Assembly (NCBI RefSeq): GCF_004103825.1
Contig: NZ_RYFI01000012.1
Span: 1 to 57,939, forward strand
Direction of reading: 5' to 3'
Origin: Hansschlegelia zhihuaiae
GTDB taxonomy: Bacteria; Pseudomonadota; Alphaproteobacteria; Rhizobiales; Methylopilaceae
DNA: 57,939 nucleotides
Below, piece after piece: positions 2,680-36,872 of the stretch (the first letter of the stretch is position 1; the number at the start of each line of letters is the position of its first letter). Under the pieces are notes generated by a model. It was not told the DNA's origin and made no database searches. It saw nothing but the letters and a program-made list of their open reading frames with translations. The position numbers and the translations under genes were made by a program.

Positions 2680-4019
2680 GCGCCTACATCTCCGATCCCG
2701 CGATGGGCGTCATCATGCTCGCCCTGTTCGTGGGGCTGCTGCTGCTCGGCTTCCCGATCGCCTTCACGCTGATGGCCCTCGGCGTGGGCTTCGGCTACTA
2801 CGCCATGGGCGACACGGTGTTCCAGCTGTTCGTCCAGCGCACCTACAGCGTGATGTCCTCGGACGTGCTGATCTCGGTGCCGCTGTTCCTGTTCATGGGC
2901 TATCTGGTCGAGCGCGCCAACATCCTCGACCGGCTGTTCAAGTCGATCCAGCTCGCGGCCGGCGGCCTTCCGGGCTCGCTCGCGCTCGCCACGCTCGCGA
3001 CCTGCGCGCTGTTCGCGACCGCGACCGGGATCGTGGGCGCGGTCGTCACGCTGATGGGCCTGCTCGCCTTCCCGGCGATGCTGCGCGCCGGCTACGACAC
3101 GCGGCTGTCGGCCGGCGTCGTTTGCGCCGGCGGCTGCCTCGGCATTCTGATCCCGCCAAGCGTGATGCTGATCCTCTATGGCGCGACCGCGGGCGTTTCG
3201 GTCGTCAAGCTCTACGCCGCCGCCTTCTTCCCCGGGCTGATGCTCGCCACGCTCTACATGGCCTATGTCATCATCCGCGTGCTGCTGAACCCGTCGCTCG
3301 CGCCGAAGCTGCCGCCCTCGGAGCGCGCGTCGTCCTATTTCGCGGTGCTGTGGGCGCTCGCGACCTCGTTCCTGCCGCTCGCCTTGCTGATCTCCGGCGT
3401 GCTCGGCGCCATCATCGGCGGCTACGCGACGCCGTCCGAAGCCGCGGCCGTCGGCGCGATGGGCGCGTTCCTGCTCGCGGTCGCCTACCGGCAGCTGACC
3501 TTCGAGAAGCTGAGGGAGAGCGTCTATCTCACCGCCCGCGCCTCCGCGATGGTGTGCTGGCTGTTCGTCGGCTCCTTCGTGTTCTCGGCCGTATTCGCCT
3601 ATCTGGGCGGCCAGTCGGTCGTCGAGAACTTCATCATCGGGCTCGACCTGACCCCGATCCAGTTCCTGATCCTGACCCAGATCATCATCTTCGTGCTGGG
3701 CTGGCCGCTCGAATGGACCGAGATCATCGTCATCTTCCTGCCGATCTTTCTGCCGCTGCTGAGCCACTTCAACATCGACCCGCTGTTCTTCGGCATCCTG
3801 GTGGCACTGAACATCCAGACGTCGTTCCTGTCGCCGCCGGTCGCGATGGCGCCGTTCTACCTGAAGGGCGTGGCGCCCAAGCATGTCTCGATCAACGAGA
3901 TCTTCGCCGGGGTGATGCCCTTCCTGTTCATCGTGATCTTCTCGATGGCGCTGTACTACGCCTTTCCGGCGATCGGCCTCTGGCTGCCGAACTACATGTA
4001 TGGCGGCGGGGCGCAATAG
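2676..4019 (+). CDS. dctM: TRAP transporter large permease DctM
   Basis: The large permease subunit, 447 residues from GTG 2676, which overlaps the dctQ stop by 4 nt. An ATG at 2703 is an alternative that would shorten the protein by nine residues. The protein is hydrophobic throughout with about 12 membrane segments. It has the DctM motifs VPLFLFMGYLVERANI, a glycine/alanine-rich transport region, GCLGILIPPSVMLILYG, and GYATPSEAAAVG. It completes the dctPQM operon. The plus-strand operon is embedded among minus-strand genes (apaG, hslO). Confidence 0.93.
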   Translation: MSAYISDPAMGVIMLALFVGLLLLGFPIAFTLMALGVGFGYYAMGDTVFQLFVQRTYSVMSSDVLISVPLFLFMGYLVERANILDRLFKSIQLAAGGLPGSLALATLATCALFATATGIVGAVVTLMGLLAFPAMLRAGYDTRLSAGVVCAGGCLGILIPPSVMLILYGATAGVSVVKLYAAAFFPGLMLATLYMAYVIIRVLLNPSLAPKLPPSERASSYFAVLWALATSFLPLALLISGVLGAIIGGYATPSEAAAVGAMGAFLLAVAYRQLTFEKLRESVYLTARASAMVCWLFVGSFVFSAVFAYLGGQSVVENFIIGLDLTPIQFLILTQIIIFVLGWPLEWTEIIVIFLPIFLPLLSHFNIDPLFFGILVALNIQTSFLSPPVAMAPFYLKGVAPKHVSINEIFAGVMPFLFIVIFSMALYYAFPAIGLWLPNYMYGGGAQ

Positions 4020-4028
4020 CGGGGACGA

Positions 4029-4133
4029 CCGTCATCCCGGACGGCCGTAAGGCCGATCCGGGATCGTCCTCAGGACAAGGCGCGCTTCGGGGGCCGATCC
4101 CGTCTCCGCTCTTCGCTCGAGGCGGGATGACGG
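4029..4133. repeat. Intergenic palindromic element with outer inverted repeats
   Basis: The outer arms are CCGTCATCCCG (4029-4039) and CGGGATGACGG (4123-4133). Inside is a perfect-ended hairpin with arms ATCCCGGA (4034-4041) and TCCGGGAT (4057-4064) plus a GGCC/GGCC inner stem, and a second ATCCCG/CGGGAT pair (4097-4102 with 4123-4128). This composition matches the GTCATCCCGG class of short palindromic intergenic repeats common in alphaproteobacteria. It sits between the convergent dctM and hslO and may act as a bidirectional terminator. Confidence 0.7.
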
Positions 4134-4146
4134 CCCTGCAGCCGCG

Positions 4147-5136
4147 TCAGGCCTCGCCTTCCGTGGAGGCGTCCAACTCCGCCGCCTCCTCGGCCGAGAA
4201 GGCGTATTTCGTCGAGCAGAAGTCGCACGTCACCTCGATCGAGCCGTCGTCGGCGCGCATGTCGCGGCGGTCGTCGGCCGTGAAGCTCTTCAGCATGCCG
4301 AGCACGCGCTCGCGCGAGCAGCGGCAGGCCTCGCGAACCCCGCGGCTTTCGAACACCCGGATCTCGCGCTCGTTGAACAGGCGGATCAGCAGCCGCTCGG
4401 GTTCCAGCGTCGGGTCGATCAGCTCGTGGTCCTCGACGGTCGAGACCAGCGTCTGGGCCTCGACCCAGGCGTCGTCCTCGGCGCTCTCGGGGATTTCGGC
4501 GCCGTCCGGCGCGTCGCCGGGATCGAGGTCGGGCGTGCGCATGCGCTCCGGCGCCTCGGGCAGGAACTGCACCAGCAGCCCGCCGGCGCGCCAGGAATGG
4601 CTCGCACCGGGCGACAGCGTCTCGGCGACCGCGAGCCGCACCTTGGTCGGGATCTGCTCGGACTGCCGGAAGTAGGCGTGCGCCGCCTCCTCGAGGCCGC
4701 CGCCTTCGAGCGCGACCACGCCCTGATAGCGCGACATGTCCGGCCCCTGGTCGATGGTCAGCGCCATATGGCCGTAGCCGAGCAGCGCCCCGGAGCCGCG
4801 GACGTCGTAGAGCCGGTCCTTGTCGAAGCGGGCGCAGGCCCGGACCCTGTCCGGGGCCTCGAAGTCGACCACCAGCATGCCGACCGGGCCGTCGGAACGG
4901 GTCTGGAGCTGAAAGCGGCCGTCGATCTTGAGCGCCGAGCCGAGCAGAACGGTGAGCGCCACCGCCTCGCCGAGCAGCTTCGAGACCGAGGGCGGATAGG
5001 CGTGACGCTCGATCACGGCGTCGATCGAGGGCCCGAGCCGCACCACGCGGCCGCGGACGTCGAGCGCCTCGATCTGGAACGGCAGGATGCGGTCGTCGCC
5101 GTCCTCGCGGAGGGCGGATGGGGCGTGGTCTGTCAT
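4147..5136 (-). CDS. hslO: Hsp33 redox-activated chaperone
   Basis: A 329-residue cytosolic holdase. In this family oxidation releases zinc from four cysteines and activates the chaperone. The four ligands are visible at the C-terminus: CRC at about residues 271-273 and CDFC at about 304-307. N-terminal Hsp33 features include the PSVSKLLGEAVALTVLLGS helix and the GPVGMLVVDFEAPDRVRA strand. Length is slightly above the usual 290-300 because of an acidic stretch (DLDPGDAPDGAEIPESAEDD) in the middle. In Rhizobiales it usually lies next to argF; here an HdeD-like gene lies between. Confidence 0.95.
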   Translation of the reverse strand: MTDHAPSALREDGDDRILPFQIEALDVRGRVVRLGPSIDAVIERHAYPPSVSKLLGEAVALTVLLGSALKIDGRFQLQTRSDGPVGMLVVDFEAPDRVRACARFDKDRLYDVRGSGALLGYGHMALTIDQGPDMSRYQGVVALEGGGLEEAAHAYFRQSEQIPTKVRLAVAETLSPGASHSWRAGGLLVQFLPEAPERMRTPDLDPGDAPDGAEIPESAEDDAWVEAQTLVSTVEDHELIDPTLEPERLLIRLFNEREIRVFESRGVREACRCSRERVLGMLKSFTADDRRDMRADDGSIEVTCDFCSTKYAFSAEEAAELDASTEGEA

Positions 5137-5199
5137 GATGGGGCATATTTAGGCCCCACGGCGCCCAAACGGAAGATAGCGAGCCTGACGGCGCTCCCT

Positions 5200-5775
5200 T
5201 TAGCCCTTGAGCCGGCGCGACCGTAGCCGGTACGCCATTGCGAACAGCGCGCCGCTCAGGATCAGCGCGTACACGCCGATCCACCATGTCAGCACGACTG
5301 CGCCAAGGAGCGGCGCGACCACGAGCGCGAGCCCGAACAGGATGGATGCGACCCCCGCCAGGATGAACCAGACTTTGCCATGGCTTGCGTCGAGCCGGAA
5401 CGCGGATGCGATCATCATAACGCCCGAGACGAACGACCAGGCCGCAAGCAGCAGAACGAAGACGATCGCGGTGAGGCCCGGCCACAGCAACGCGACGACC
5501 GCGGCCGCGATGCTGGCGAGCCCGCCGACCAGCAGCGGGAGCCAACGGCGCCACCCGGCGCGAACGCACTGGGCCGCGAGGAAGAGCTCGGCCACCCCGT
5601 CCACGAAGGCGTAGGCCGCAAACAGCAGCACCAGCGACAGGATGGTCGCGCCCGGCGCCAATAGCGCGATCATGCCGAACAGCAGGGCGAAAAGGCCCCG
5701 CAGGGCCACCACCCACCAACGCTGGGCGAACGGAAGGGCGATGGACTCCGCCCATTTGTGCGCGAAATCGGACAT
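5200..5775 (-). CDS. HdeD/DUF308 family membrane protein
   Basis: A 191-residue protein with six predicted transmembrane helices, arranged as three similar helix pairs typical of DUF308/HdeD. Each repeat carries a G/A-rich helix, for example GLFALLFGMIALLAPGATI, GLASIAAAVVALLWPG and GVASILFGLALVVAPLLG. HdeD is associated with acid resistance in E. coli, but most family members are uncharacterised. It is transcribed in the same direction as argD-argF and hslO with gaps of 107 and 63 bp. A palindrome lies 17 bp before the start codon. Confidence 0.85.
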   Translation of the reverse strand: MSDFAHKWAESIALPFAQRWWVVALRGLFALLFGMIALLAPGATILSLVLLFAAYAFVDGVAELFLAAQCVRAGWRRWLPLLVGGLASIAAAVVALLWPGLTAIVFVLLLAAWSFVSGVMMIASAFRLDASHGKVWFILAGVASILFGLALVVAPLLGAVVLTWWIGVYALILSGALFAMAYRLRSRRLKG

Positions 5776-9130: not shown

Positions 9131-9829
9131 TCAGGCCCGGGCGAAGGTCTCGTCGAAGGAGTAGCCCGAGCCGCGCACGGTGCGGATCGGGTCGGGCTTG
9201 CGGCCGCGGTTGATCGCCTTGCGGAGCCGGCCGACATGGACGTCCACCGTGCGCTCGTCGATATAGACGTCGCGGCCCCAGACCCCGTCGAGCAGCTGCT
9301 CGCGGGTGAAGACGCGGCCCGCCGACTGCATCAGGAATTCGAGCAGGCGGAACTCGGTCGGGCCCAGATGGATCTCGCGCGACTGACGGCGGACGCGACG
9401 GTTGACGCGGTCGACCTCGATGTCGCCGGCCTTGAGCGTCTGGGCGACGTGTTCGGGCTTGGTGCGGCGGAGCAGCGCGCGCACCCGCGCCACCAGTTCG
9501 GGGACCGAGAACGGCTTCACCACATAGTCGTCCGCGCCGGTCGCGAGGCCGCGGATGCGCTCGGCCTCCTCGCCGCGGGCGGTCAGCATGATGATCGGCA
9601 GCCGCTGGGTCTCGGGACGCGCCCGTAGCCTGCGGCAGAGCTCGATCCCCGAGACCCCAGGCAGCATCCAGTCCAGGAGGACCAGGTCGGGAGTGGCCTC
9701 GGACAGCCGGATCTCAGCCTCGTCGCCCCGCGCGACGGCGTCGACCTGATAGCCTTCAGCCTCGAGATTGTAGCGGAGCAGCATGGTGAGCGGCTCCTCG
9801 TCCTCGACGATCATCACGCGAGGGCTCAT
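9131..9829 (-). CDS. phoB: Phosphate regulon response regulator PhoB
   Basis: An OmpR/PhoB-type response regulator of 232 residues. The receiver domain has the acidic pair ED at residues 9-11, the phosphoacceptor Asp53 in LVLLDWMLPG, and Lys in VVKPFSVPEL. The C-terminal winged helix contains the recognition region TREQLLDGVWGRDVYIDERTVDVHVGRLRKAI. Phosphorylated PhoB binds Pho boxes, such as the array before pstS. It is the last gene of the phoR-pstSCAB-phoU-phoB order, 13 bp after phoU. Confidence 0.97.
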   Translation of the reverse strand: MSPRVMIVEDEEPLTMLLRYNLEAEGYQVDAVARGDEAEIRLSEATPDLVLLDWMLPGVSGIELCRRLRARPETQRLPIIMLTARGEEAERIRGLATGADDYVVKPFSVPELVARVRALLRRTKPEHVAQTLKAGDIEVDRVNRRVRRQSREIHLGPTEFRLLEFLMQSAGRVFTREQLLDGVWGRDVYIDERTVDVHVGRLRKAINRGRKPDPIRTVRGSGYSFDETFARA

Positions 9830-28745: not shown

Positions 28746-29735
28746 CTAAACCAGCAAGGTTTTTGATACGGAAGCGCCCAAAGTGTATTTGGGATCCACC
28801 ATGTTCCCGACACGCAGCTTACCGGCCTGGGTGAGCAGCATATAGGCGTCCAGTTCGTCATACCCGTAATCGGCCGCCATCCAACGGACGAGCTCGCGGT
28901 AGGCGATTCTTGCGGCGTCCTCCATCGGGCGGGCTGATCCGATCGTCATGATCGATCCTTCGGTTTCGAGCCGTGGCCAACGAAACGTCCAGTTCTTGAT
29001 GAGGTCGATCTGGATTGTGGTTACGGTCGGGTGCTCGATTGCGAAACCGCAGATTTCGCCGTCGCCCTGCGTTGCGTGGCAGTCGCCGAGGTAGAGCAAC
29101 CCGCCTGGCGCGTGGACTGGAAGATAGATGACCGCGCCCGGCGCGACGTCCGGCAGGTCCATGTTGCCGCCGTAATAGTCCGGGACGAGCGACGAGATCG
29201 CCTCGATCTCAGGCGAAGTCCCGATCGTCCCGATGAAGGGCTGGTATGGTAGGGTGATCTTTTCGTTCCACACCACGCCCCTCTCCGTCGTGACCTCGAC
29301 CTTCTTCACGATCTCGGGCAGCGGCGGGTTGAGGATCGCCGTGTCGCCAGTGCCGACGAGGCCGCCGAACTCCGGCATGATGCATGTCGTGCCGACAGGC
29401 TGCGGACCGCGGGGGATGATCTTCTGGATGTGGACCGCGAGGCAGTCGCCCTTCTCGGCGCCGTTGACGTGGATCGGACCGTTCTGCGGATTGAGGAAGG
29501 GGAAGTTCAGGATCGCGCTCGGGCTGTCGCTCTCTGTCTTGATCCGCCCTTCCATGGCGTCGTGGGTTTCAGCGGAAACCACCGCTCCCGGATCAACCCG
29601 CAGCACGGGCTCCACGTAGGGGCCGTAGACGTAATGGTATTTGCCCTGTGAGGTCTCCGTGATTGAAAAGCTCTGACCGGGCTGTCCCTTGGCCAGGCCG
29701 CGCTTGGTCATGATCGATGTTTCAAGCCAGTTCAT
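28746..29735 (-). CDS. fmdA: Acetamidase/formamidase
   Basis: A 329-residue enzyme of the FmdA/AmdA family, which hydrolyses short amides such as formamide or acetamide to acid and ammonia. The family blocks are NPQNGPIHVNGAEKGD, FGGLVGTGD, GTIGTSPE near the middle, and LYLGDCHATQGDGE, which contains conserved His and Asp. Tail motifs include YDELDAYMLLTQAGKLRVGNMVDP. It is the third gene of a leftward amiC-amiR-fmdA unit, 125 bp after amiR, and faces a nitrile hydratase operon. It could consume the amide made by that hydratase; its exact substrate is inferred. Confidence 0.92.
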   Translation of the reverse strand: MNWLETSIMTKRGLAKGQPGQSFSITETSQGKYHYVYGPYVEPVLRVDPGAVVSAETHDAMEGRIKTESDSPSAILNFPFLNPQNGPIHVNGAEKGDCLAVHIQKIIPRGPQPVGTTCIMPEFGGLVGTGDTAILNPPLPEIVKKVEVTTERGVVWNEKITLPYQPFIGTIGTSPEIEAISSLVPDYYGGNMDLPDVAPGAVIYLPVHAPGGLLYLGDCHATQGDGEICGFAIEHPTVTTIQIDLIKNWTFRWPRLETEGSIMTIGSARPMEDAARIAYRELVRWMAADYGYDELDAYMLLTQAGKLRVGNMVDPKYTLGASVSKTLLV

Positions 29736-29860: not shown

Positions 29861-30508
29861 TCAGCGCCGCGCGAGCGTCGGTTCGTCGGCGTCCGGGGCA
29901 GTTCCGGTCGGCTCTGATCGGCAGGCGAGATGCTGTTCGCAGTAGTCCTCGAGACTGAGACGGCTCCGCATGCTGTCCCGTCTCAGGATCGCGTACGCCT
30001 CGTCGTCGTCGACGGCGCGCAACTCCATGATCCGGACGATCGTCTTGATCACCAACCGGCGCCGTCGGCGCCGATCCCGATGCTCGCCGAGCTGGTCCAG
30101 GACGGTCTTGCGCTGAAGGAACTGGTTCACGCCGAGAAAGAGCGTGGTGTAGACAGCGCCGGCATAGACCGGTTTGCGCAGGAAGGCGGTCGCGCCTTGG
30201 TTCATTAGCGCCTTCAGGCGGCTCGGGGCTTCGACGCCCACAAGTCCAATGACGGCCGCGGGCGGCAGCCCGTTGACGAACCGGTCCGGCGACAGCACCG
30301 CGGCGAGATCGCCGTCGATGAAAAGAACGTCACGATCGAACGCGAAGTCCGCGACGCGCACGGCGCCCTCGACCGAAGGAAGCGCCGGCCCGTGTACGAC
30401 AAGGCCGAGCTTCGTCAGCACGGACGCCAGGGTGTCGATTCCGCCTTCGCGAGACGCGAAGATGGTGGCGTTCATGCCGCGAAAATTCTGGAGAAGCGCC
30501 GGGGTCAT
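29861..30508 (-). CDS. amiR: ANTAR-domain antiterminator AmiR
   Basis: A 215-residue RNA-binding regulator. The N-terminal half is a receiver-like domain that probably lacks phosphotransfer function, as in Pseudomonas AmiR. A coiled-coil helix (about 125-150) leads to a C-terminal ANTAR domain: VIKTIVRIMELRAVDDDEAYAILRRDSM. ANTAR proteins bind paired hairpins in leader RNA and prevent termination. ATG 30508 overlaps the amiC stop (ATGA), as in other amiCR operons. Two matching leader RNAs lie at 31675-31790 and 31922-32013. Confidence 0.92.
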   Translation of the reverse strand: MTPALLQNFRGMNATIFASREGGIDTLASVLTKLGLVVHGPALPSVEGAVRVADFAFDRDVLFIDGDLAAVLSPDRFVNGLPPAAVIGLVGVEAPSRLKALMNQGATAFLRKPVYAGAVYTTLFLGVNQFLQRKTVLDQLGEHRDRRRRRRLVIKTIVRIMELRAVDDDEAYAILRRDSMRSRLSLEDYCEQHLACRSEPTGTAPDADEPTLARR

Positions 30509-31674
30509 GAGCTCACCACCCGCAGGCGGGACGCGGGCGCGCCCCATGCGTCTGTCGCGTTGAACCGGACAAGGTACGGGTCCGGTCGGATCGCTATGGG
30601 CTGCTGCCTGATCACGTCGAAGGTCGCGTCGGAGCGCGAACGACCAATTCTGGGCGTCAGGTGGAGGTGCATCGTTTCGCCATCGACGAGAACTTCGCCC
30701 TGTGGCGCATTGAGACGCTGGCTCGCCAGGGCCCGGCGCACCGGTCCGACTTCGTCGGAGCCGGCTTGCGCCACCGCCGCCGCGAGGAGCTTCACCGCGA
30801 TGTACGAGGCTTCGCCGTCAGCCGACGTCCATGGCTTGTCCGGATAGGCGGCGGCGTAGTTCGCGACGAACGCGTCGTTCTCCGGGGTCGCCAGCGACGA
30901 GAAATAGACGCTTGAGCTGATATGGCCGTCCATCGCTCCGAGGCCGATATCGATGAGATCCGGCTCGGAGAGGTTGCAGCTCGCGATCGGCATGACCGAC
31001 GGCTGGTCGATCCCCTGGGCAAGGCAGGCCTCGCGGAGCCTGCGGATGAAAACGTAATTGCTTACGCCGATCAGGGACGAGAACACGAAGCTCGGCCGGG
31101 CCGCCAGGATCGCATCGACAGTCTTGTCGAAATCAGTCTCGCCGACCGACAGATAGCGCTCCGCCACCACGACGCCGCCTCGGGCGGCGACGACCTCACG
31201 CAGGATCCGGTTGTTTTCCCAAGCCCAGATATAGTTCGAGCCGACGCAGAAGGCCCGGTCCCCGAAAGACGACATCAAATGATCGATTAGCGGCAGGATG
31301 TGCTGATTCGGCGCTGCGCCCGTGTAGACGACATTGTCCGAGCTCTCGAACCCCTCGTAATGAGACGGGTACCAGAGCATTCCATCGTGCTTCTCGAAGA
31401 CGGGGATGACTTCCTTCCGGCTCGACGAGGTGTAGCAGCCGACGACTTGACGGATGCCGCCTGTCAGGAGCTTCGAACTCAGAGATCCGTAGCGCGCGAG
31501 GTCGCCTTCCGGATTGACGATCTCCGGTTCAAGCCGGACGCCGCCGCCCCTGTTGACTTCGGAGACCGCGAGCAACGCCCCGTTCAGCATCGAGCACGCC
31601 ACGGTGCTGTAAGGCCCGGTCGTCGAGAACATCAGACCGATGCGGAACGTCGGGTTTGTCATTGCGCGTCGCAC
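30505..31674 (-). CDS. amiC: AmiC-like amide sensor, periplasmic-binding-protein fold
   Basis: A 389-residue member of the AmiC/UrtA-like type I binding-protein family (FRIGLMFSTTGPYSTVACSMLNG, YWYPSHYEGFESSDNVVYTGAAPNQ-like, NYIWAWENNRIL). There is no signal peptide, so it is cytosolic, as AmiC is. AmiC sequesters AmiR until an amide binds. The start is GTG 31674, which directly follows the U tract of the leader terminator and has GAGGG in the terminator stem as a ribosome site. ATG 31662 is an alternative without a visible ribosome site. Confidence 0.92.
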   Translation of the reverse strand: MRRAMTNPTFRIGLMFSTTGPYSTVACSMLNGALLAVSEVNRGGGVRLEPEIVNPEGDLARYGSLSSKLLTGGIRQVVGCYTSSSRKEVIPVFEKHDGMLWYPSHYEGFESSDNVVYTGAAPNQHILPLIDHLMSSFGDRAFCVGSNYIWAWENNRILREVVAARGGVVVAERYLSVGETDFDKTVDAILAARPSFVFSSLIGVSNYVFIRRLREACLAQGIDQPSVMPIASCNLSEPDLIDIGLGAMDGHISSSVYFSSLATPENDAFVANYAAAYPDKPWTSADGEASYIAVKLLAAAVAQAGSDEVGPVRRALASQRLNAPQGEVLVDGETMHLHLTPRIGRSRSDATFDVIRQQPIAIRPDPYLVRFNATDAWGAPASRLRVVSS

Positions 31675-31707
31675 AAAAAAGCCCTCGAGCCGGTGAGGCT
31701 TGAGGGC
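31675..31707 (-). terminator. Leader terminator before amiC
   Basis: On the minus strand GCCCTC-A-AGCC pairs with GGCT-C-GAGGGC around TCACC, then six U residues. The U run ends at the base before the amiC GTG. The 5' arm GCCC is also the 3' side of the P2 hairpin, so the two structures exclude each other. Confidence 0.85.
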
Positions 31708-31790
31708 GTCGCTGCCTAACGCGAGCAGAAGCTCGCGCCGATGATATTCTCGAAGAATTGGCGCTCATTTGAGCAGCTTTGCTCTGCGCC
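31675..31790 (-). ncRNA. ANTAR-type antitermination leader of amiC-amiR-fmdA
   Basis: P1 (31790-31760) has outer stem GGCGC/GCGCC, inner stem GAGC/GCTC and hexaloop AAAGCT. P2 (31716-31705) is GGC/GCC with hexaloop AGCGAC. Both loops have A at position 1 and G at position 4, the known ANTAR signature. An extra CGCGAGC/GCTCGCG hairpin (31737-31720) lies in the linker and would bring P1 and P2 together. The terminator at 31707-31675 shares bases with P2. Confidence 0.82.
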
Positions 31791-31884: not shown

Positions 31885-31913
31885 TTGACAGTTTTTTGAG
31901 CCGCCGCCAATCT
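31885..31913 (+). promoter_or_regulatory. Promoter of the nitrile hydratase leader
   Basis: TTGACA (31885-31890), 17-nt spacer, then a weak -10 (CAATCT, 31908-31913). The start would fall near 31920, directly before P1. The -35 to P1 distance is 31 nt, the same as on the opposite strand. Confidence 0.55.
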
Positions 31914-31921
31914 CATTTCAT

Positions 31922-32013
31922 GCGTCGAGCAAGGCTGCTCATGTAGACGCAAGTCATGCTCATCATAGGAATTCGGCACAGTCGCCCGCAGCTAGATGCT
32001 GACGGGCTTTTTT
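31922..32013 (+). ncRNA. ANTAR-type antitermination leader of the nitrile hydratase operon
   Basis: P1 (31922-31950) has outer stem GCGTC/GACGC, inner stem GAGC/GCTC and hexaloop AAGGCT, with a 5-nt bulge on the 3' side. P2 (31975-31986) is GGC/GCC with hexaloop ACAGTC. Both loops keep A1 and G4. P2 shares GCC with the 5' arm of the following terminator. The layout mirrors the amiC leader, and the encoded AmiR is the natural ligand. Confidence 0.83.
31984..32013 (+). terminator. Leader terminator before nitrile hydratase
   Basis: GCCCG-CAGC pairs with GCTG-A-CGGGC around TAGAT, with one bulged A, followed by six T residues (32008-32013). It is 163 bp before the first structural gene and no gene lies between, which fits attenuation. 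Confidence 0.87.
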
Positions 32014-32175: not shown

Positions 32176-32850
32176 GTGAAAATCCAGCATTTCCTTGGGG
32201 GCATCGAAAACCTCGGACCCGTCTCTGTCGAAAAACGCGTGTTCGTGGAGCCCTGGGAGGCCCAGCTCTTCGCGGTCCACACGACCATGATGGGCACGGG
32301 CATCTGGGCTTGGCCCGACCTGCGCGTCCTGGCGGAATCGATGAATCCGCTCGATTACTTCAAGTATCGCTATTATATCAAATGGCTGGGCGGCATGTGC
32401 CACTTCCTCGTCTCCAAAAACTATATCTCGGAGAAGGAGCTCGAGGAAAAAACGAAATACTATCTGGACAATCCAGAGGCGAAGCAGCCGAACGCCGGAA
32501 ATGGCGATATCACCGAGAAGGTGATCAATTACTTCTATACGGGCGCCAACCCCTATCGCGACGTCGCGGTGAACCCGATCTTCAAGGTCGGCGACACTGT
32601 GCGGGTCAAGGACATGCCGCCGGTCGTGCACACCCGGCTGCCCGGCTACCTCCGCAACAAGGTCGGCGTCGTCGAGACCGTCTACAAAGGCGCGTATCTC
32701 TACGCGGACAATGTGCCCACCGACGGCATCTGCACCGCCCAGCCGGTCTATCTCATCAAGTTCAAGACCCGCGACCTGTGGAACGACATCCCGGACAAGG
32801 GGGACGTTCTCTACAACGACTGCTTCGAGGTCTACCTCGAGGCGGCGTAA
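32176..32850 (+). CDS. nthB: Nitrile hydratase beta subunit
   Basis: A 224-residue beta subunit of nitrile hydratase, which converts nitriles to amides together with the alpha subunit. Family features include the N-terminal GGIENLGPV, WEAQLFAVHTTMMGTGIW, YYIKWLGG, and the C-terminal barrel with FKVGDTVRVKDMPPVVHTRLPGYLRNKVG. The N-terminal part is also found in the accessory protein encoded at 33554. The order beta-alpha-accessory is the one typical of cobalt-type enzymes. It follows the leader RNA at 31922-32013. Thiocyanate hydrolase is a related alternative, but its beta and alpha parts differ. Confidence 0.93.
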   Translation: MKIQHFLGGIENLGPVSVEKRVFVEPWEAQLFAVHTTMMGTGIWAWPDLRVLAESMNPLDYFKYRYYIKWLGGMCHFLVSKNYISEKELEEKTKYYLDNPEAKQPNAGNGDITEKVINYFYTGANPYRDVAVNPIFKVGDTVRVKDMPPVVHTRLPGYLRNKVGVVETVYKGAYLYADNVPTDGICTAQPVYLIKFKTRDLWNDIPDKGDVLYNDCFEVYLEAA

Positions 32851-32918: not shown

Positions 32919-33539
32919 ATGAGTGACGATCACGACCACGACCACCATCACCACCTTCGCGAAAGCGAGAGCTACTACGCCGCGCGCACCAAGGCGCTGG
33001 AGTCCCTGTTCCGTGAGAAGGGGCTCATCGGGACCGACACTGTCGACCGGGTCATCAACTTCTTCGAACACGAAATGGGGCCGTTCAACGGCGCCAAGGT
33101 CGTGGCCAAGGCCTGGACCGATCCGGCCTTCAAGGGCCGCCTGCTCGCCGACGCCAACAAGGCGATCGCGGAGCTCGGCATGCGCGACGGCATCGAGGGA
33201 GAGAACCTCAAGGTCGTCGAGAACAAGCCGGGCACGCATAACGTGGTCTGCTGCACGCTGTGCTCCTGCTGGCCATGGCCGCTGCTCGGCCTTCCGCCTT
33301 ACTGGTTCAAGGATCCGGTGTTCCGCGCCCGCGTCGTCCGCGAGCCGCGCGGCGTCCTGTCCGACTTCGGCGTGACGCTGCCGGACGACCACAAGATCGA
33401 GATCTGGGATTCGAGCGCGCAGGTCCGTTATTTCGTGATCCCGGAGCGTCCCGCCGGCACTGAAGGCTGGACCGAGGAGAAGCTCGCCGCCCTGGTCTCG
33501 ACCGAGGCCATGCAGGGTCTCGGCCTGGCGACGGCCTGA
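32919..33539 (+). CDS. nthA: Nitrile hydratase alpha subunit, cobalt type
   Basis: The 206-residue alpha subunit that carries the metal. The claw motif is C112-T-L-C115-S-C117, the cobalt form (Thr after the first Cys; iron forms have Ser). Trp118 stands where cobalt enzymes usually have Tyr, and an additional Cys111 precedes the motif. The N-terminus is strikingly histidine rich (six His among residues 5-12), perhaps for metal delivery. Typical downstream motifs are WPWPLLGLPPYW and VVREPRGVLSDFG. It starts 68 bp after the beta gene and 14 bp before the accessory gene. Confidence 0.95.
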   Translation: MSDDHDHDHHHHLRESESYYAARTKALESLFREKGLIGTDTVDRVINFFEHEMGPFNGAKVVAKAWTDPAFKGRLLADANKAIAELGMRDGIEGENLKVVENKPGTHNVVCCTLCSCWPWPLLGLPPYWFKDPVFRARVVREPRGVLSDFGVTLPDDHKIEIWDSSAQVRYFVIPERPAGTEGWTEEKLAALVSTEAMQGLGLATA

Positions 33540-33553
33540 CGGGAGGAACAGTC

Positions 33554-33892
33554 ATGGACGCCTATGTCGACGAGCTCACCGGCCGCGAGGCCATTCCGCG
33601 GAACTGCGAGAGCCTGAAGTTCGACGAGCCGTGGCAGGGCCGCGCCTTCGGCATGGTGCTCGCGCTCGCGGAGGCCAAGTCCTACCCGTACGAAGACTTC
33701 CGCCAGAGCCTGATCAGCACGATCGGCGATTGGGACAAAACCCATGAGCCCGGCGACGAGACCTGGAGCTACTACCAGCAGTGGCTCGCGGCGTTCGAGA
33801 AGCTCGCGCTCGACAAGGGCCTGATCAATTCCGACGAGCTTGATCGCCGGACCGAAGAGTTCCTGCGCCGGACCCGCGACGAAGTGATCTGA
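33554..33892 (+). CDS. Nitrile hydratase accessory protein
   Basis: A 112-residue protein of the nitrile hydratase activator/NHase beta N-terminal-like family (P14K/NhlE type). It has FDEPWQGRAFGMVLALAE, which mirrors the N-terminal domain of the beta subunit, and the WSYYQQWLAAFEKLALDKG helix. These proteins help insert cobalt and allow cysteine oxidation in the alpha subunit. It lacks the long charged tail of some activators. It is the third gene of the operon. Two GC-rich hairpins follow it. Confidence 0.9.
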   Translation: MDAYVDELTGREAIPRNCESLKFDEPWQGRAFGMVLALAEAKSYPYEDFRQSLISTIGDWDKTHEPGDETWSYYQQWLAAFEKLALDKGLINSDELDRRTEEFLRRTRDEVI

Positions 33893-33949: not shown

Positions 33950-33994
33950 AACGGGAGCACCTTGCCCTCTCGCAGCCTGGAAAGGCGCACCGCA

Positions 33995-34516
33995 ATGATC
34001 ATTCCTCTCGCCATCAGCGTGGGCCTGCTCGGGGGCGTCTGCACCTGGCTGTTCCTCGCGACCGACGCCTTCCTCATCTGGGCGGCCTTCGCGGCCTGGG
34101 CGTGTTTCTATCATTCGGGCGGCGACGCCGCGGCGTTCCGGACGACCATCGTCTCGAACCTCTTCGGCGTATTCATCGCCTGGGCGGCCGGACTGGTTCT
34201 TGCGACGGTCGCCCCGGGGCCTGCGCTCGGCGCGACGATCGTCGCCGCCTCGATCGCGATCTACATCCTCGCCGCCTATATCCCCGCGTTCTCGTCGATA
34301 CCGGCCGTGACCTACGGCTACGCCTGCACGTTCTCGTTTCTCACGCAGAACGCCGACGCCTTCACGCCTGCCGTCATGCTTTCGGCTTCCGGCCGGAACG
34401 CGCTGCTGATCGTGCCCTTCTCCATGATCATCGGGGCCTGCTTCGCCTACGCCTCGGCCCTCCTCGCCGCGAAGATCCACCAGTTCGCGCCGAAGGGAAC
34501 CGCCGGCGCCTCCTGA
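33995..34516 (+). CDS. DUF1097 membrane protein
   Basis: A 173-residue protein with about five membrane helices and the DUF1097 pattern: WLFLATDAFLIWAAFAAWACFYHSGGD, then TTIVSNLFGVFIAWAAG, then SSIPAVTYGYACTFSF. Function is unknown; relatives such as YcdZ are inner-membrane proteins. ATG 33995 is preferred over the TTG at 33962 because GGAAAGG lies upstream and the membrane domain begins at once. It lies between the hydratase accessory gene and cbtB, which suggests a role with nitriles, amides or cobalt, but this is inferred from position only. Confidence 0.8.
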   Translation: MIIPLAISVGLLGGVCTWLFLATDAFLIWAAFAAWACFYHSGGDAAAFRTTIVSNLFGVFIAWAAGLVLATVAPGPALGATIVAASIAIYILAAYIPAFSSIPAVTYGYACTFSFLTQNADAFTPAVMLSASGRNALLIVPFSMIIGACFAYASALLAAKIHQFAPKGTAGAS

Positions 34517-34587: not shown

Positions 34588-34809
34588 ATGAGCAACGCCG
34601 CATTCGCAACCACCGCGCCGGCGACGTCCCGCGCAGAGCCGATCCCTGTCGGAACGATCCTGCCCTGGGCGGTCTTCGCCAGTCTCATGCTTCTCCTCGC
34701 CGTCTACTTCGTCGGCGCCGAGGAAGGCGCGACGTCGCTGATCGGCGGATCCTACGTGCACGAATTCGTGCACGACGGCCGCCACCTCCTCGGCTTCCCC
34801 TGTCACTGA
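34588..34809 (+). CDS. cbtB: Cobalt transporter subunit CbtB
   Basis: A 73-residue small membrane protein with one helix (about 24-43) and the CbtB signature HEFVHDGRHLLGFPCH at the C-terminus, which is rich in potential metal ligands. CbtB works with CbtA in proposed cobalt import. Many cbtAB genes sit behind cobalamin riboswitches, but only 71 bp lie before this gene and no such element is visible. Its place after a cobalt-type nitrile hydratase suggests cobalt supply for that enzyme. It is 11 bp before cbtA. Confidence 0.88.
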   Translation: MSNAAFATTAPATSRAEPIPVGTILPWAVFASLMLLLAVYFVGAEEGATSLIGGSYVHEFVHDGRHLLGFPCH

Positions 34810-34820
34810 AGGAGGGCGAG

Positions 34821-35573
34821 ATGGTCGGCAATCTCCTGCTAAGGGGCATGATGATCGGCGTGCTCGCCGGCCTTCTCGCCTTCTGCTTCGCAAAGACCTT
34901 CGGCGAACCGTGGGTCGACTACGCGATCGCCTTCGAGGAGCACCCGAGCCACGCCGCGGCTGGCGCGGCCGAAGAGCCCGAGATCGTGAGCCGGCAGACC
35001 CAGGCGGGCTTCGGGCTCCTGACCGGCCTGCTCGTCTACGGCGCAGCGATCGGGGGCCTGTTGGCGCTCGCCTTCGCCTTCGCCGACGGGCGGCTCGGGC
35101 GGCTCAGCTCGCGGTCCGTCGCGGCCGTCATCGCAGCGCTTGGGTATGTGGCGATCGTGCTCGTCCCCCAGCTCAAATATCCGGCCAATCCGCCGGCGGT
35201 CGGCAGCGCCGACACCATCGTCGCGCGCACGGAGCTCTTCTTCGTGATGCTCGCCTTTTCGGTCGCGCTGATGATCGCGGCGGCGATGTTCGGCCGGCGC
35301 CTTTCGGAACGCTTCGGCGGATGGAACGGCGCCACGGTGGCGGCGGGCGTCTACCTCGCCATCATGACCGTGATGTTCGCCGCCCTTCCGAACATCGAGG
35401 AGATCCCGGCGTCTTTCTCGCCCGGGGCGCTCTGGAACTTCCGGGTGGCGTCGATCGGCGTCCAGACGGTGCTCTGGGCGTCCATCGGGCTTGGCTTTGG
35501 CGCGGTCGCCGAGTTCAGCGCCCGTCACAGAAGCGTTCCGGGCAAGGTCGTCGGAGCGGCCGCCTCGCGATGA
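34821..35573 (+). CDS. cbtA: Cobalt transporter CbtA
   Basis: A 250-residue membrane protein with about six helices. The N-terminal GNLLLRGMMIGVLAGLLAFCFAKTFGEP and the SRQTQAGFGLLTGLLVYGAAIGG segment match CbtA. A loop with PQLKYPANPPAVG precedes the fourth helix. It is a predicted cobalt permease; biochemical proof for the family is limited. GGAGGG lies before the start. Its stop overlaps the next gene by 4 nt. Confidence 0.9.
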   Translation: MVGNLLLRGMMIGVLAGLLAFCFAKTFGEPWVDYAIAFEEHPSHAAAGAAEEPEIVSRQTQAGFGLLTGLLVYGAAIGGLLALAFAFADGRLGRLSSRSVAAVIAALGYVAIVLVPQLKYPANPPAVGSADTIVARTELFFVMLAFSVALMIAAAMFGRRLSERFGGWNGATVAAGVYLAIMTVMFAALPNIEEIPASFSPGALWNFRVASIGVQTVLWASIGLGFGAVAEFSARHRSVPGKVVGAAASR

Positions 35574-36241
35574 CGACCGGTTCGATCCTCAGCGGGCTGT
35601 TCAAACGGCCTGAGCGTCTGGCTCAGGTCGTCGCGCTCGTTCTGTCGCTGACGGCTCCGACATTCGCGCTCGCCCATTCGGGCGGCGCGTCGCCGGCGGG
35701 AGGAGCGGGGCTGGCGATCGCCGCGATCTCTCATGGCGAGATGGCGCTGATCGACGAGCACCTGCAGGAGATCGTCTCGCTTGCGAAGGTCCAGACCGCG
35801 AGCGACGGGCCGGTCCGGCGGCTCCTCAATTACTACAACGTCCAGCTCGCCTACTGTTTCTGGGGGCTGGCGCCCGGCGGCGTCTTGCGCGAGGAGAGCC
35901 CGTTCAACCCCTGCGCTCACGCCTATCTCGCCGCCGCAAAGGCGCTGCTCCTAATGATGGCCAAGGAACCGGCGAGCCAGGGGCCGGCGGCCGACATTCT
36001 TTCGCGCCTCGAACAGCGCCGACAGGCCATGCCGGAAGCCGGCGCGATCTGTTCGTCGAGCGACCAAGGCTTCAACACGTCGGCGATCGTCAGGCCGGCC
36101 TTCTCGGACGTCGTCGCGGATCCGGCGACCCGCTTCGTCGGAGCGGGAGGGCTCCTGGCCATGCTTGGGCTGGGCTTGGCCTTCACCGCCACCCGACGGA
36201 AGACGAGCCGGAGCAAGGAGCGGCAGTTCCGACCATCGTAA
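35570..36241 (+). CDS. Exported single-helix protein of unknown function in the cobalt region
   Basis: I do not recognise this 223-residue protein. It has a signal peptide (cleavage after ALA near residue 35), an alpha-helical middle with C96, C115, C161, H55, H64 and H117, and a C-terminal membrane helix (about 189-207) followed by a basic tail. This gives a type I topology with the main domain outside. It overlaps cbtA by 4 nt (ATGA), so it is translated with it. Cys and His residues could bind metal, but this is inference. Confidence 0.7.
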   Translation: MTTGSILSGLFKRPERLAQVVALVLSLTAPTFALAHSGGASPAGGAGLAIAAISHGEMALIDEHLQEIVSLAKVQTASDGPVRRLLNYYNVQLAYCFWGLAPGGVLREESPFNPCAHAYLAAAKALLLMMAKEPASQGPAADILSRLEQRRQAMPEAGAICSSSDQGFNTSAIVRPAFSDVVADPATRFVGAGGLLAMLGLGLAFTATRRKTSRSKERQFRPS

Positions 36242-36266
36242 CCAGGCCGCTCGACGCAAGGTCGGC

Positions 36267-36872
36267 ATGGCCCGAACATTCGGCTCGATGCACAGGCTCA
36301 CACTTATCTGCGCCGCCAGGCTGCGGCGTCCGGTGTTCCCCGGCGCCGAAAGTCTGGACGAGACCGCCATCGCGCGCATCGGCGTCGCAGACCCGCGTCT
36401 CCGGGCGGCGGATCGGACATGGTGCGGGCCCGACGCGATGACGCGAAGGAGCGCGGCTGCGCTCGGCCTCGACCCAACGCTTCAGCAGGCGCTCGCCGAG
36501 GTCGACTACGGCTCGTGGCGTGGACGTTCGTTGGACGACCTCGCCACCTCCCAACCGGATGCGGTCCAGCTGTGGGTCGACGACCCGTTTTCTGCTCCCC
36601 ACGGCGGCGAAACTATCGCGCATCTGCTCAATCGAGTCGGCAATTGGCTCACCGAAATCCGCGCGCTGAGGGGAATGTCGGTCGCTGTCGCGCCGGCGTC
36701 ATTCGTCAAGGCCAGCCTCATTGCAGTCCTTGGGGCCCCGGCCACCTCGTTCGGTCGTGTCGACGCAACCGCCCTGGGAGCGTCGCAGTTCGTCGCCGAC
36801 GGTCGACGCTGGATTTTGCGGTCATTCAATGAGCGACATCTTGGCGACAAGAGCGAGCACCCGCGGCGGTAG
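36267..36872 (+). CDS. Histidine-phosphatase-like protein lacking the catalytic histidines
   Basis: A 201-residue protein of the phosphoglycerate-mutase/histidine-phosphatase superfamily. Recognisable parts are the start HRLTLICAARL, WCGPDAMTRRSAAALGL, LAEVDYGSWRGRSLDDLA, and PHGGETIAHLLNRV. The RHG-type catalytic motif after the first strand is replaced by CAAR, and the second histidine (VTHAA in relatives) is replaced by VAPAS, so it is probably not an active phosphatase. Relatives occur near cbtAB in other Rhizobiales. ATG 36267 or 36288 may be the start. Confidence 0.7.
   Translation: MARTFGSMHRLTLICAARLRRPVFPGAESLDETAIARIGVADPRLRAADRTWCGPDAMTRRSAAALGLDPTLQQALAEVDYGSWRGRSLDDLATSQPDAVQLWVDDPFSAPHGGETIAHLLNRVGNWLTEIRALRGMSVAVAPASFVKASLIAVLGAPATSFGRVDATALGASQFVADGRRWILRSFNERHLGDKSEHPRR

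Follow-up and report, generated by a model that had tools for sequence, protein, structure and literature searches.

The closest described systems include two in which an ANTAR protein acts on a leader RNA. In Pseudomonas aeruginosa ami, an AmiC-like sensor and an AmiR-like ANTAR protein are encoded together, and the AmiR substrate is described in passages of PMC3369931 as a short stem with a hexaloop upstream of a terminator. In Enterococcus faecalis, EutV (bound to RNA in 6ww6) recognizes dual hexaloops with A at position 1 and G at position 4 (A1 and G4), the second hairpin (P2) being embedded in the terminator; according to sections of PMC8934654, G4 is the loop base contacted specifically by EutV, and 11 EutV residues contact the RNA. 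The two proteins differ in how they are switched on, EutV being activated by phosphorylation (sections of PMC3369931 and PMC8934654) and AmiR by release from AmiC. Alphaproteobacteria also carry operons of amiC, amiR, an amide/urea ABC transporter, and an acetamidase. For nitrile hydratase, the AmiC-like proteins NhlC/NhhC of Rhodococcus rhodochrous are tied to amide induction of the enzyme. Their partner regulator is MarR-like, and we know of no ANTAR protein or leader in the regulation of that nitrile hydratase.

We analysed 57,939 nucleotides of Hansschlegelia zhihuaiae (contig NZ_RYFI01000012.1; the whole stretch is called the window), in which a nitrile hydratase operon on the plus strand diverges from amiC, amiR, and an acetamidase gene on the minus strand. 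Like P. aeruginosa ami, the window encodes an AmiC-like sensor together with an AmiR-like ANTAR protein and has a short stem with a hexaloop upstream of a terminator (ami leader as given in passages of PMC3369931); as for EutV, there are two A1/G4 hexaloops, with P2 embedded in the terminator (sections of PMC8934654). Unlike in ami, the window leaders form a divergent pair, one copy of which would serve nitrile hydratase and cobalt import. The regulator pair and acetamidase are also those of the alphaproteobacterial amide/urea operons, which, unlike the window, are colinear, include a transporter, and have neither nitrile hydratase nor a second divergent leader. By comparative analysis and analogy with the known systems, we consider it very likely that the leader on the hydratase side (N side) and a sister on the amiC side (A side) make up a divergent pair of ANTAR-type antitermination leaders under the control of the adjacent AmiC/AmiR. 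The features are as follows.

31885–31890, plus strand: TTGACA, likely −35 element of the nitrile hydratase promoter (perfect match read in the sequence; −10 weak)
31922–32013, plus strand: whole N-side leader, preceding the nitrile hydratase operon
31922–31950, plus strand: N-side P1 hairpin GAGC-AAGGCT-GCTC with outer helix GCGTC/GACGC (sequence, covariation, RNAalifold)
31922–31926 and 31946–31950, plus strand: arms GCGTC and GACGC of the N-side outer helix
31927–31930 and 31937–31940, plus strand: arms GAGC and GCTC of N-side P1, enclosing the loop AAGGCT
31952–31974, plus strand: N-side linker 3' of the outer helix, with no predicted fold (0.0 kcal/mol)
31975–31986, plus strand: N-side P2 hairpin GGC-ACAGTC-GCC (GGC 31975–31977, GCC 31984–31986)
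31984–32013, plus strand: N-side intrinsic terminator GCCCGCAGC-TAGAT-GCTGACGGGC-TTTTTT, its 5' arm being the 3' strand of P2
31822–31827, minus strand: TTGACA, likely −35 element of the amiC promoter (read in the sequence)
31759–31790, minus strand: A-side P1 hairpin GAGC-AAAGCT-GCTC with outer helix GGCGC/GCGCC (sequence, scan, covariation)
31719–31738, minus strand: A-side linker hairpin, with none on the N side (linker folding; not in the RNAalifold consensus)
31705–31716, minus strand: A-side P2 hairpin GGC-AGCGAC-GCC (sequence, mechanical scan)
31675–31707, minus strand: A-side intrinsic terminator GCCCTCAAGCC-TCACC-GGCTCGAGGGC-TTTTTT (scan; −19.0 kcal/mol)
30505–31662, minus strand: AmiC-like amide sensor (PF13433, E 2.4e-125)
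29861–30508, minus strand: AmiR-like ANTAR antiterminator (PF03861, 33.6 bits, cut-off 27.3)
28746–29735, minus strand: acetamidase/formamidase (PF03069, E 8.9e-37)
32176–32850, plus strand: nitrile hydratase beta subunit (TIGR03888, 205.4 bits, cut-off 152.2)
32919–33539, plus strand: nitrile hydratase alpha subunit, with CTLCSC (TIGR01323, 283.6 bits, cut-off 249.85)
33554–33892, plus strand: nitrile hydratase accessory protein (TIGR03889, 73.5 bits, cut-off 46)
33962–34516, plus strand: DUF1097 protein (PF06496, E 7.9e-25)
34588–34809, plus strand: CbtB cobalt transporter subunit (PF09489, E 1.9e-8)
34821–35573, plus strand: CbtA cobalt transporter subunit (PF09490, E 5.2e-71)

The earlier note on this DNA had described P1, an outer stem, P2, and a terminator using the same GCC as P2, with A1 and G4 in both hexaloops; all of these elements are present where it had placed them, and the loop signature can be read directly in the N-side sequence. 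The N-side terminator is a stem-loop of nine pairs with one bulged A (31984–32007) followed by six T (32008–32013), and its predicted folding energy is −17.2 kcal/mol, against −2.8 for P2 alone. In both window leaders, P2 and terminator exclude one another, as the GCC of P2 is the 5' arm of the terminator, and both also have A1 and G4 in the P1 and P2 hexaloops, with at least 3 bp in each hairpin. The A-side leader (31790–31675, minus strand, 5' of the divergent amiC-amiR-acetamidase genes), which the earlier note had overlooked, is of like design, with P1 laid out as GGCGC-A-GAGC-AAAGCT-GCTC-AAATGA-GCGCC (loop AAAGCT). A perfect TTGACA stands 5' of each leader, so each transcript is expected to start close to P1. 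In the upstream sequences inspected, TTGAC recurs at the corresponding place 5' of the relatives' N-side leaders; a strict sigma-70 scan of the region reported no full promoter.

The CTLCSC of the alpha subunit is the motif of cobalt-type nitrile hydratases. Downstream of CbtA (35570–36872), the window encodes a protein without a Pfam match and then a histidine phosphatase, perhaps a cobalt/nitrile hydratase accessory set. The genome has a second nitrile hydratase (L113, C59:120500-130500, at 3833–5548), with beta 48% identical by tblastn and 52% in the genome search; within 10 kb, it has no amiC/amiR match and no leader-scan match, and by eye a frame 5' of its beta gene resembles the DUF1097 protein of the window operon.

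The window AmiC is homologous to P. aeruginosa AmiC (1pea, E 1.8e-65), and its gene lies directly upstream of amiR. We call the window ANTAR protein AmiR-like because its AmiR_N domain (PF21332) falls below the Pfam cut-off (20.9 versus 27 bits) although its predicted fold matches P. aeruginosa AmiR; in the relative at locus L041, AmiR_N is above the cut-off (57.5 bits). The AlphaFold model (mean pLDDT 80.6, from a ten-row alignment) has as best PDB matches EutV with RNA (6ww6, E 3.5e-9) and P. aeruginosa AmiR (1qo0, E 6e-9). Likeness to the latter is remote, with no phmmer match to 1qo0 at E 0.1 and 18% identity in the structural alignment. At the 11 EutV contact positions, placed by a phmmer alignment with an inferred 2-residue shift between chain and EutV numbering, window AmiR has six identical residues (R142, K147, Y164, R168, M172, R175), two conservative changes (K143 to R, E160 to D), and three differences (K149 to I, N173 to R, R177 to S). 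Thus, eight of the 11 positions are identical or conservative.

GTDB r220 genomes were searched with a beta-subunit alignment, which gave 152 relatives, the best 80 of which were kept. In ten of these best 80 (L033–L042; beta 68–91% identical), amiC, amiR, and acetamidase lie beside the hydratase, nine with the divergent order of the window and one colinear (L041, Hongsoonwoonella). The P1/P2/terminator layout, which the earlier note had suggested looking for in related genomes, was found as a leader pair in nine of the ten; L041 has amiC-amiR and no canonical leader before beta. The window and these nine loci provide 20 leaders, from Methylopila, Hansschlegelia, Ancylobacter, Xanthobacter, Kaistia, Azospirillum, and other genera, seven of which were missed by the mechanical scan described below and located by eye (L033 N; L037 A; L038 A; L040 N and A; L042 N and A). 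One more genome (G215, locus L004, beta 92%) has both leaders, the N-side one found by eye, and was left out of the alignments. Among the 20 leaders, the T-run is absent in L040 N and displaced in L040 A; the L040 N-side leader (4418–4511) keeps both hexaloops and has a weak terminator stem. At L043 (Paracoccus homiensis), the beta match is limited to residues 1–170, and the examined DNA has neither an alpha nor an amiC/amiR match; the locus is perhaps a remnant.

A broader sample of 297 genomes of the order contained 141 with a beta-like match and 77 with an AmiR-profile match at E 1e-12. The two matches lie within ~4 kb of each other in at least eight genomes (G000, G111, G215, G170, G293, G081, G142, and G269), and in G142 and G269, the AmiR match is beside a different hydratase. 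In G311, the ANTAR match on contig C359 (31264 bases) was set aside as unrelated since the hydratase (L053) is on another contig (27981).

P1 and its outer helix align without gaps over 32 columns in 20 rows (18 distinct). In this structure, 91.1% of 180 cells are paired, versus 28.9–46.7% when the partner is slid by 1–3 columns. Eighteen cells are changed on both sides versus 6.5 (sd 2.3) in shuffles, a count that none of 500 shuffles reached, though the rows come from two groups of related leaders and cells are therefore not independent events. The covariation score was likewise reached by none of 500 shuffles. Two of the five shuffle measures were unremarkable: pairs with changes on both sides (5; 65 of 500 shuffles) and further pair types (11; 283 of 500). 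Compensatory examples include GAGC/GCTC and GGGC/GCCC in P1 and C-G, U-A, and A-U at columns 5/27. The P2 stem is GGC/GCC in all 19 rows of its alignment, an invariance that is partly by construction as P2 was located by the pattern GGC-N6-GCC; a mechanical scan allowing any stem again gave GGC/GCC in all 13 leader matches. The earlier note had staked its reading in part on covariation of both hairpins: P1 with its outer helix does covary, and P2, whose stem is invariant, probably because the terminator needs its strand as well, speaks neither for nor against. Given no structure, RNAalifold on 8 of 10 leaders per side recovered the terminator, P1, and its outer helix in both sets and closed the P1 loop with one further A-U pair; neither the A-side linker hairpin nor a separate P2 hairpin appeared in its output.

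G4 is present in 20/20 P1 loops and 19/20 P2 loops, and A1 in 18/20 of each (the N-side P2 of L038, outside the alignment, was read from the sequence); these counts are not independent of the searches, which sought A1/G4 loops, a bias that is limited because P1 aligns without gaps, a terminator adjoins P2, and non-conforming loops were retained. Five of the 40 loops break the A1/G4 rule: position 1 is G in two P1 loops (L033 N, L042 N) and two P2 loops (L037 A, L038 A), and position 4 is T in the P2 loop of L042 A. L037 and L038 are near-identical Xanthobacter loci, and the linker of their A-side leader (9453–9559, minus strand) holds a hairpin CGGG-ACAGAC-CCCG, whose hexaloop has A1 and G4 and which is followed by the P2 with G1. 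This hairpin may be an additional, third ANTAR site, or it may stand in for P2.

These data bear on whether the N-side element could be a plain attenuator or protective terminator that sets a fixed basal level, its leader unbound by AmiR and the hydratase under a DNA-binding regulator. Such a reading would be consistent with the strong terminator fold (−17.2 kcal/mol), and AmiR binding is so far predicted; however, P1, for which a simple attenuator has no use, is preserved through compensatory changes, a G occupies one gap-free column in 20/20 rows, and one design is common to the N and A sides. We therefore regard a plain attenuator as improbable.

The leader could also be a genuine ANTAR target whose partner is a NasT-like response regulator, in which case the operon would answer nitrate rather than amide. 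NasS-NasT pairs combine a receiver-like stretch with an NMT1-like neighbor. Besides window AmiR, the genome assembly has one other ANTAR match, a NasT-like protein (C1:469741, 70.9 bits) with just such a receiver-like stretch and an NMT1-like neighbor. Against this partner, the survey of 80 nitrile hydratase loci gave the leader pair only where amiC-amiR adjoins the hydratase; in addition, the sister leader precedes amiC-amiR, and a like leader precedes amiC in a Methylobacterium operon without hydratase. Control by NasT thus appears more doubtful still. In the other 69 loci (L044–L112, up to 10 kb on each side and less in some), tblastn with window AmiR at E 1e-3 gave no match, a blunt test that also missed the ANTAR gene of L188, a locus with another nitrile hydratase, and the sole amiC match was a short one at the edge of L061. 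A more sensitive profile, which also included the ANTAR genes of L188, L189, and L001, found a frame in one of the 69 loci, L093 (Streptomyces; 1369–2187, ~4 kb from beta, E 2.1e-6), which is either a chance neighbor or another pairing.

The mechanical scan required, for P1, a stem of at least 4 bp with the loop ANNGNN and, for P2, at least 3 bp, the loop ANNGNN, and a 3' strand running into a hairpin plus TTTT. Applied to the window and the 80 nitrile hydratase loci (3.08 Mb over both strands), it gave 15 matches: seven N-side and six A-side leaders, window included, and two elsewhere, at L095 (~1.3 kb upstream of beta, same strand) and L097, which we take as chance. Within the window, the two leaders were the only matches. 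First-order Markov copies of the scanned sequences gave 4, 2, and 2 matches. It is barely credible that these are chance hairpins in a GC-rich intergenic region: the folding energy of the whole region does equal that of shuffled sequence (z = −0.14, an uninformative measure), but 13 of the 15 scan matches are these leaders, versus 2–4 matches of any kind per Markov copy, and they are kept across several genera. Rfam at the gathering threshold reported no family at the leader, which is no evidence against the reading since Rfam may hold no ANTAR family.

In the window, P1 and P2 are 34 nt apart in the N-side leader and 54 nt apart in the A-side leader. These long linkers count against the ANTAR reading because a 20-nt linker extension is reported to abolish EutV antitermination (sections of PMC8934654). 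We folded nine linkers per side, leaving out L038 as near-identical to L037. Past the outer helix, N-side linkers are 21–23 nt in 8/9 (L042: 43), with no predicted fold in 6/9, and A-side linkers are 41–43 nt in 6/9 (L037, 32; L040, 38; L042, 74). Every A-side linker has a predicted hairpin close to P2, with folding only moderately better than in dinucleotide shuffles (2 to 109 of 500 shuffles reach each). Without this hairpin, A-side linkers are 21–24 nt in 6/9 (L037, 18; L040, 15), near the N-side length. Given the EutV result (sections of PMC8934654), the A-side hairpin may hide the extra length, as judged from this small set. The leader pairs offer a natural test of ANTAR spacing, the window linkers differing by 20 nt, approximately the length of the one-sided hairpin.

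A putative leader of this kind is also found outside the hydratase clade. Plasmids of Methylobacterium, Skermanella, Paracoccus aminophilus, and Rhizobium encode AmiR relatives in operons that combine amiC and amiR with an ABC transporter and an acetamidase and lack nitrile hydratase; we examined four of the 92 plasmid records matching AmiR. R1, a P1 model whose training rows all come from the nitrile hydratase clade (its E-values are rough), finds P1 before amiC in Methylobacterium aquaticum pMaq22A_2p (L190, E 2.1e-9), where GGC-AATGTA-GCC and a terminator follow, and a weak P1 before amiC in Rhizobium WL3 (L193, E 0.0079). It finds no P1 before amiC in the Skermanella and Paracoccus operons (L191, L192), where P2-like or P1-like hairpins are seen by eye only. 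In eight of eight more distant chromosomal AmiR loci (L155–L162), R1 gave no convincing P1. A looser scan of these loci found a canonical leader before amiC in L157 and three further matches away from amiC; in the loci other than L157, nothing convincing stands before amiC by eye.

Single R1 matches prove nothing. Over 385 genomes of the class, R1 has matches in 17 genomes (its own included) at E up to 0.01, and the best foreign one (G699, 35.8 bits, E 3.8e-6), which we reject, runs antisense within a 427-residue open frame. In the own genome, the two window leaders, both training rows, rank first, with A-side P1 second; the next matches have E 0.083, inside long open frames, and E 0.58.

Since a model built from the hydratase clade alone finds P1 in an operon without nitrile hydratase, the leader would be older than its pairing with the enzyme. 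We infer that it is probably an older amide-operon switch, of which the hydratase clade bears a second copy, the hydratase operon having replaced the transporter. Two congeners (L188 and L189) have another nitrile hydratase (alpha 48–51%, beta 27–33% identical) beside amiC and an ANTAR gene, in divergent order with CbtA in L188 and colinear in L189, where the ANTAR match falls slightly short of the Pfam cut-off (24.3 versus 27.3). In L189, a window-like terminator lies 5' of alpha, with GGC-AGCGTT-GCC (loop AGCGTT) upstream, and the P2 loop CGAAAA breaks the A1/G4 rule. In L188, the scan gave no match, and inspection by eye showed nothing convincing as a leader upstream of amiC or beta. The pairing in these two loci suggests, as far as gene neighborhoods can tell, that nitrile hydratase came under AmiR control on more than one occasion. 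The beta match of this second hydratase type in L189 (11926–12579) has one in-frame TAA in the aligned stretch. In L188, a match to the Pfam-less protein of the window follows CbtA, and a similar phosphatase-like frame lies just 5' of amiC by eye. Nitrile hydratases on plasmids (137 records) are all <60% identical.

We computed the anatomy and conservation of both leaders, the covariation of P1 and the outer helix, the identity of AmiC/AmiR, and the gene neighborhood, and the conservation, the covariation, and the adjacent AmiC/AmiR genes support the proposal of the earlier note that a putative ANTAR antitermination leader precedes the nitrile hydratase operon. For amide sensing, AmiR release, RNA binding, and antitermination, we rely on the example of P. 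aeruginosa AmiC/AmiR and E. faecalis EutV. By that analogy, AmiR would be held by AmiC when no amide is present, and both transcripts would stop at their terminators. Amide supplied from outside, or made in the cell by nitrile hydratase, would cause AmiC to free AmiR, which would then capture both hexaloops, those of P1 and P2, in each leader as it is transcribed. P2 would thereby retain the GCC needed by the terminator, so we propose that RNA polymerase reads on, reaching the genes for nitrile hydratase and cobalt import from the N-side leader and those for amiC, amiR, and acetamidase from the A-side leader. A wider scenario, which we put forward tentatively and at slightly below even confidence, is positive feedback by product sensing: amide made by the hydratase would be sensed by AmiC, and AmiR would antiterminate both divergent leaders, for enzyme plus cobalt importer and for sensor plus amidase. 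It would have arisen when a nitrile hydratase operon with a second leader replaced the amide transporter of an ancestral AmiR-controlled operon, the inducer then being made from nitriles rather than imported.

The earlier note had considered AmiR-type control of nitrile hydratase to be undescribed. Searches of an open-access collection likewise gave, among the matches listed, no paper that connects nitrile hydratase with ANTAR or AmiR, which is no proof of absence as most subscription papers were outside this scope; in the portions of PMC3557214 and PMC11857848 concerned, antitermination wording occurs in places unrelated to nitrile hydratase. This seems to be a known mechanism on an unreported target, well supported by comparative sequence analysis. 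Nitrile hydratase, an industrial enzyme for acrylamide and nicotinamide, is one metabolic step from amidase, the classic AmiR target. If the reading is correct, nitrile hydratase would be subject to control by amide at the RNA level, through a switch whose molecular logic is known, and import of its cobalt cofactor would be coupled to the same switch.
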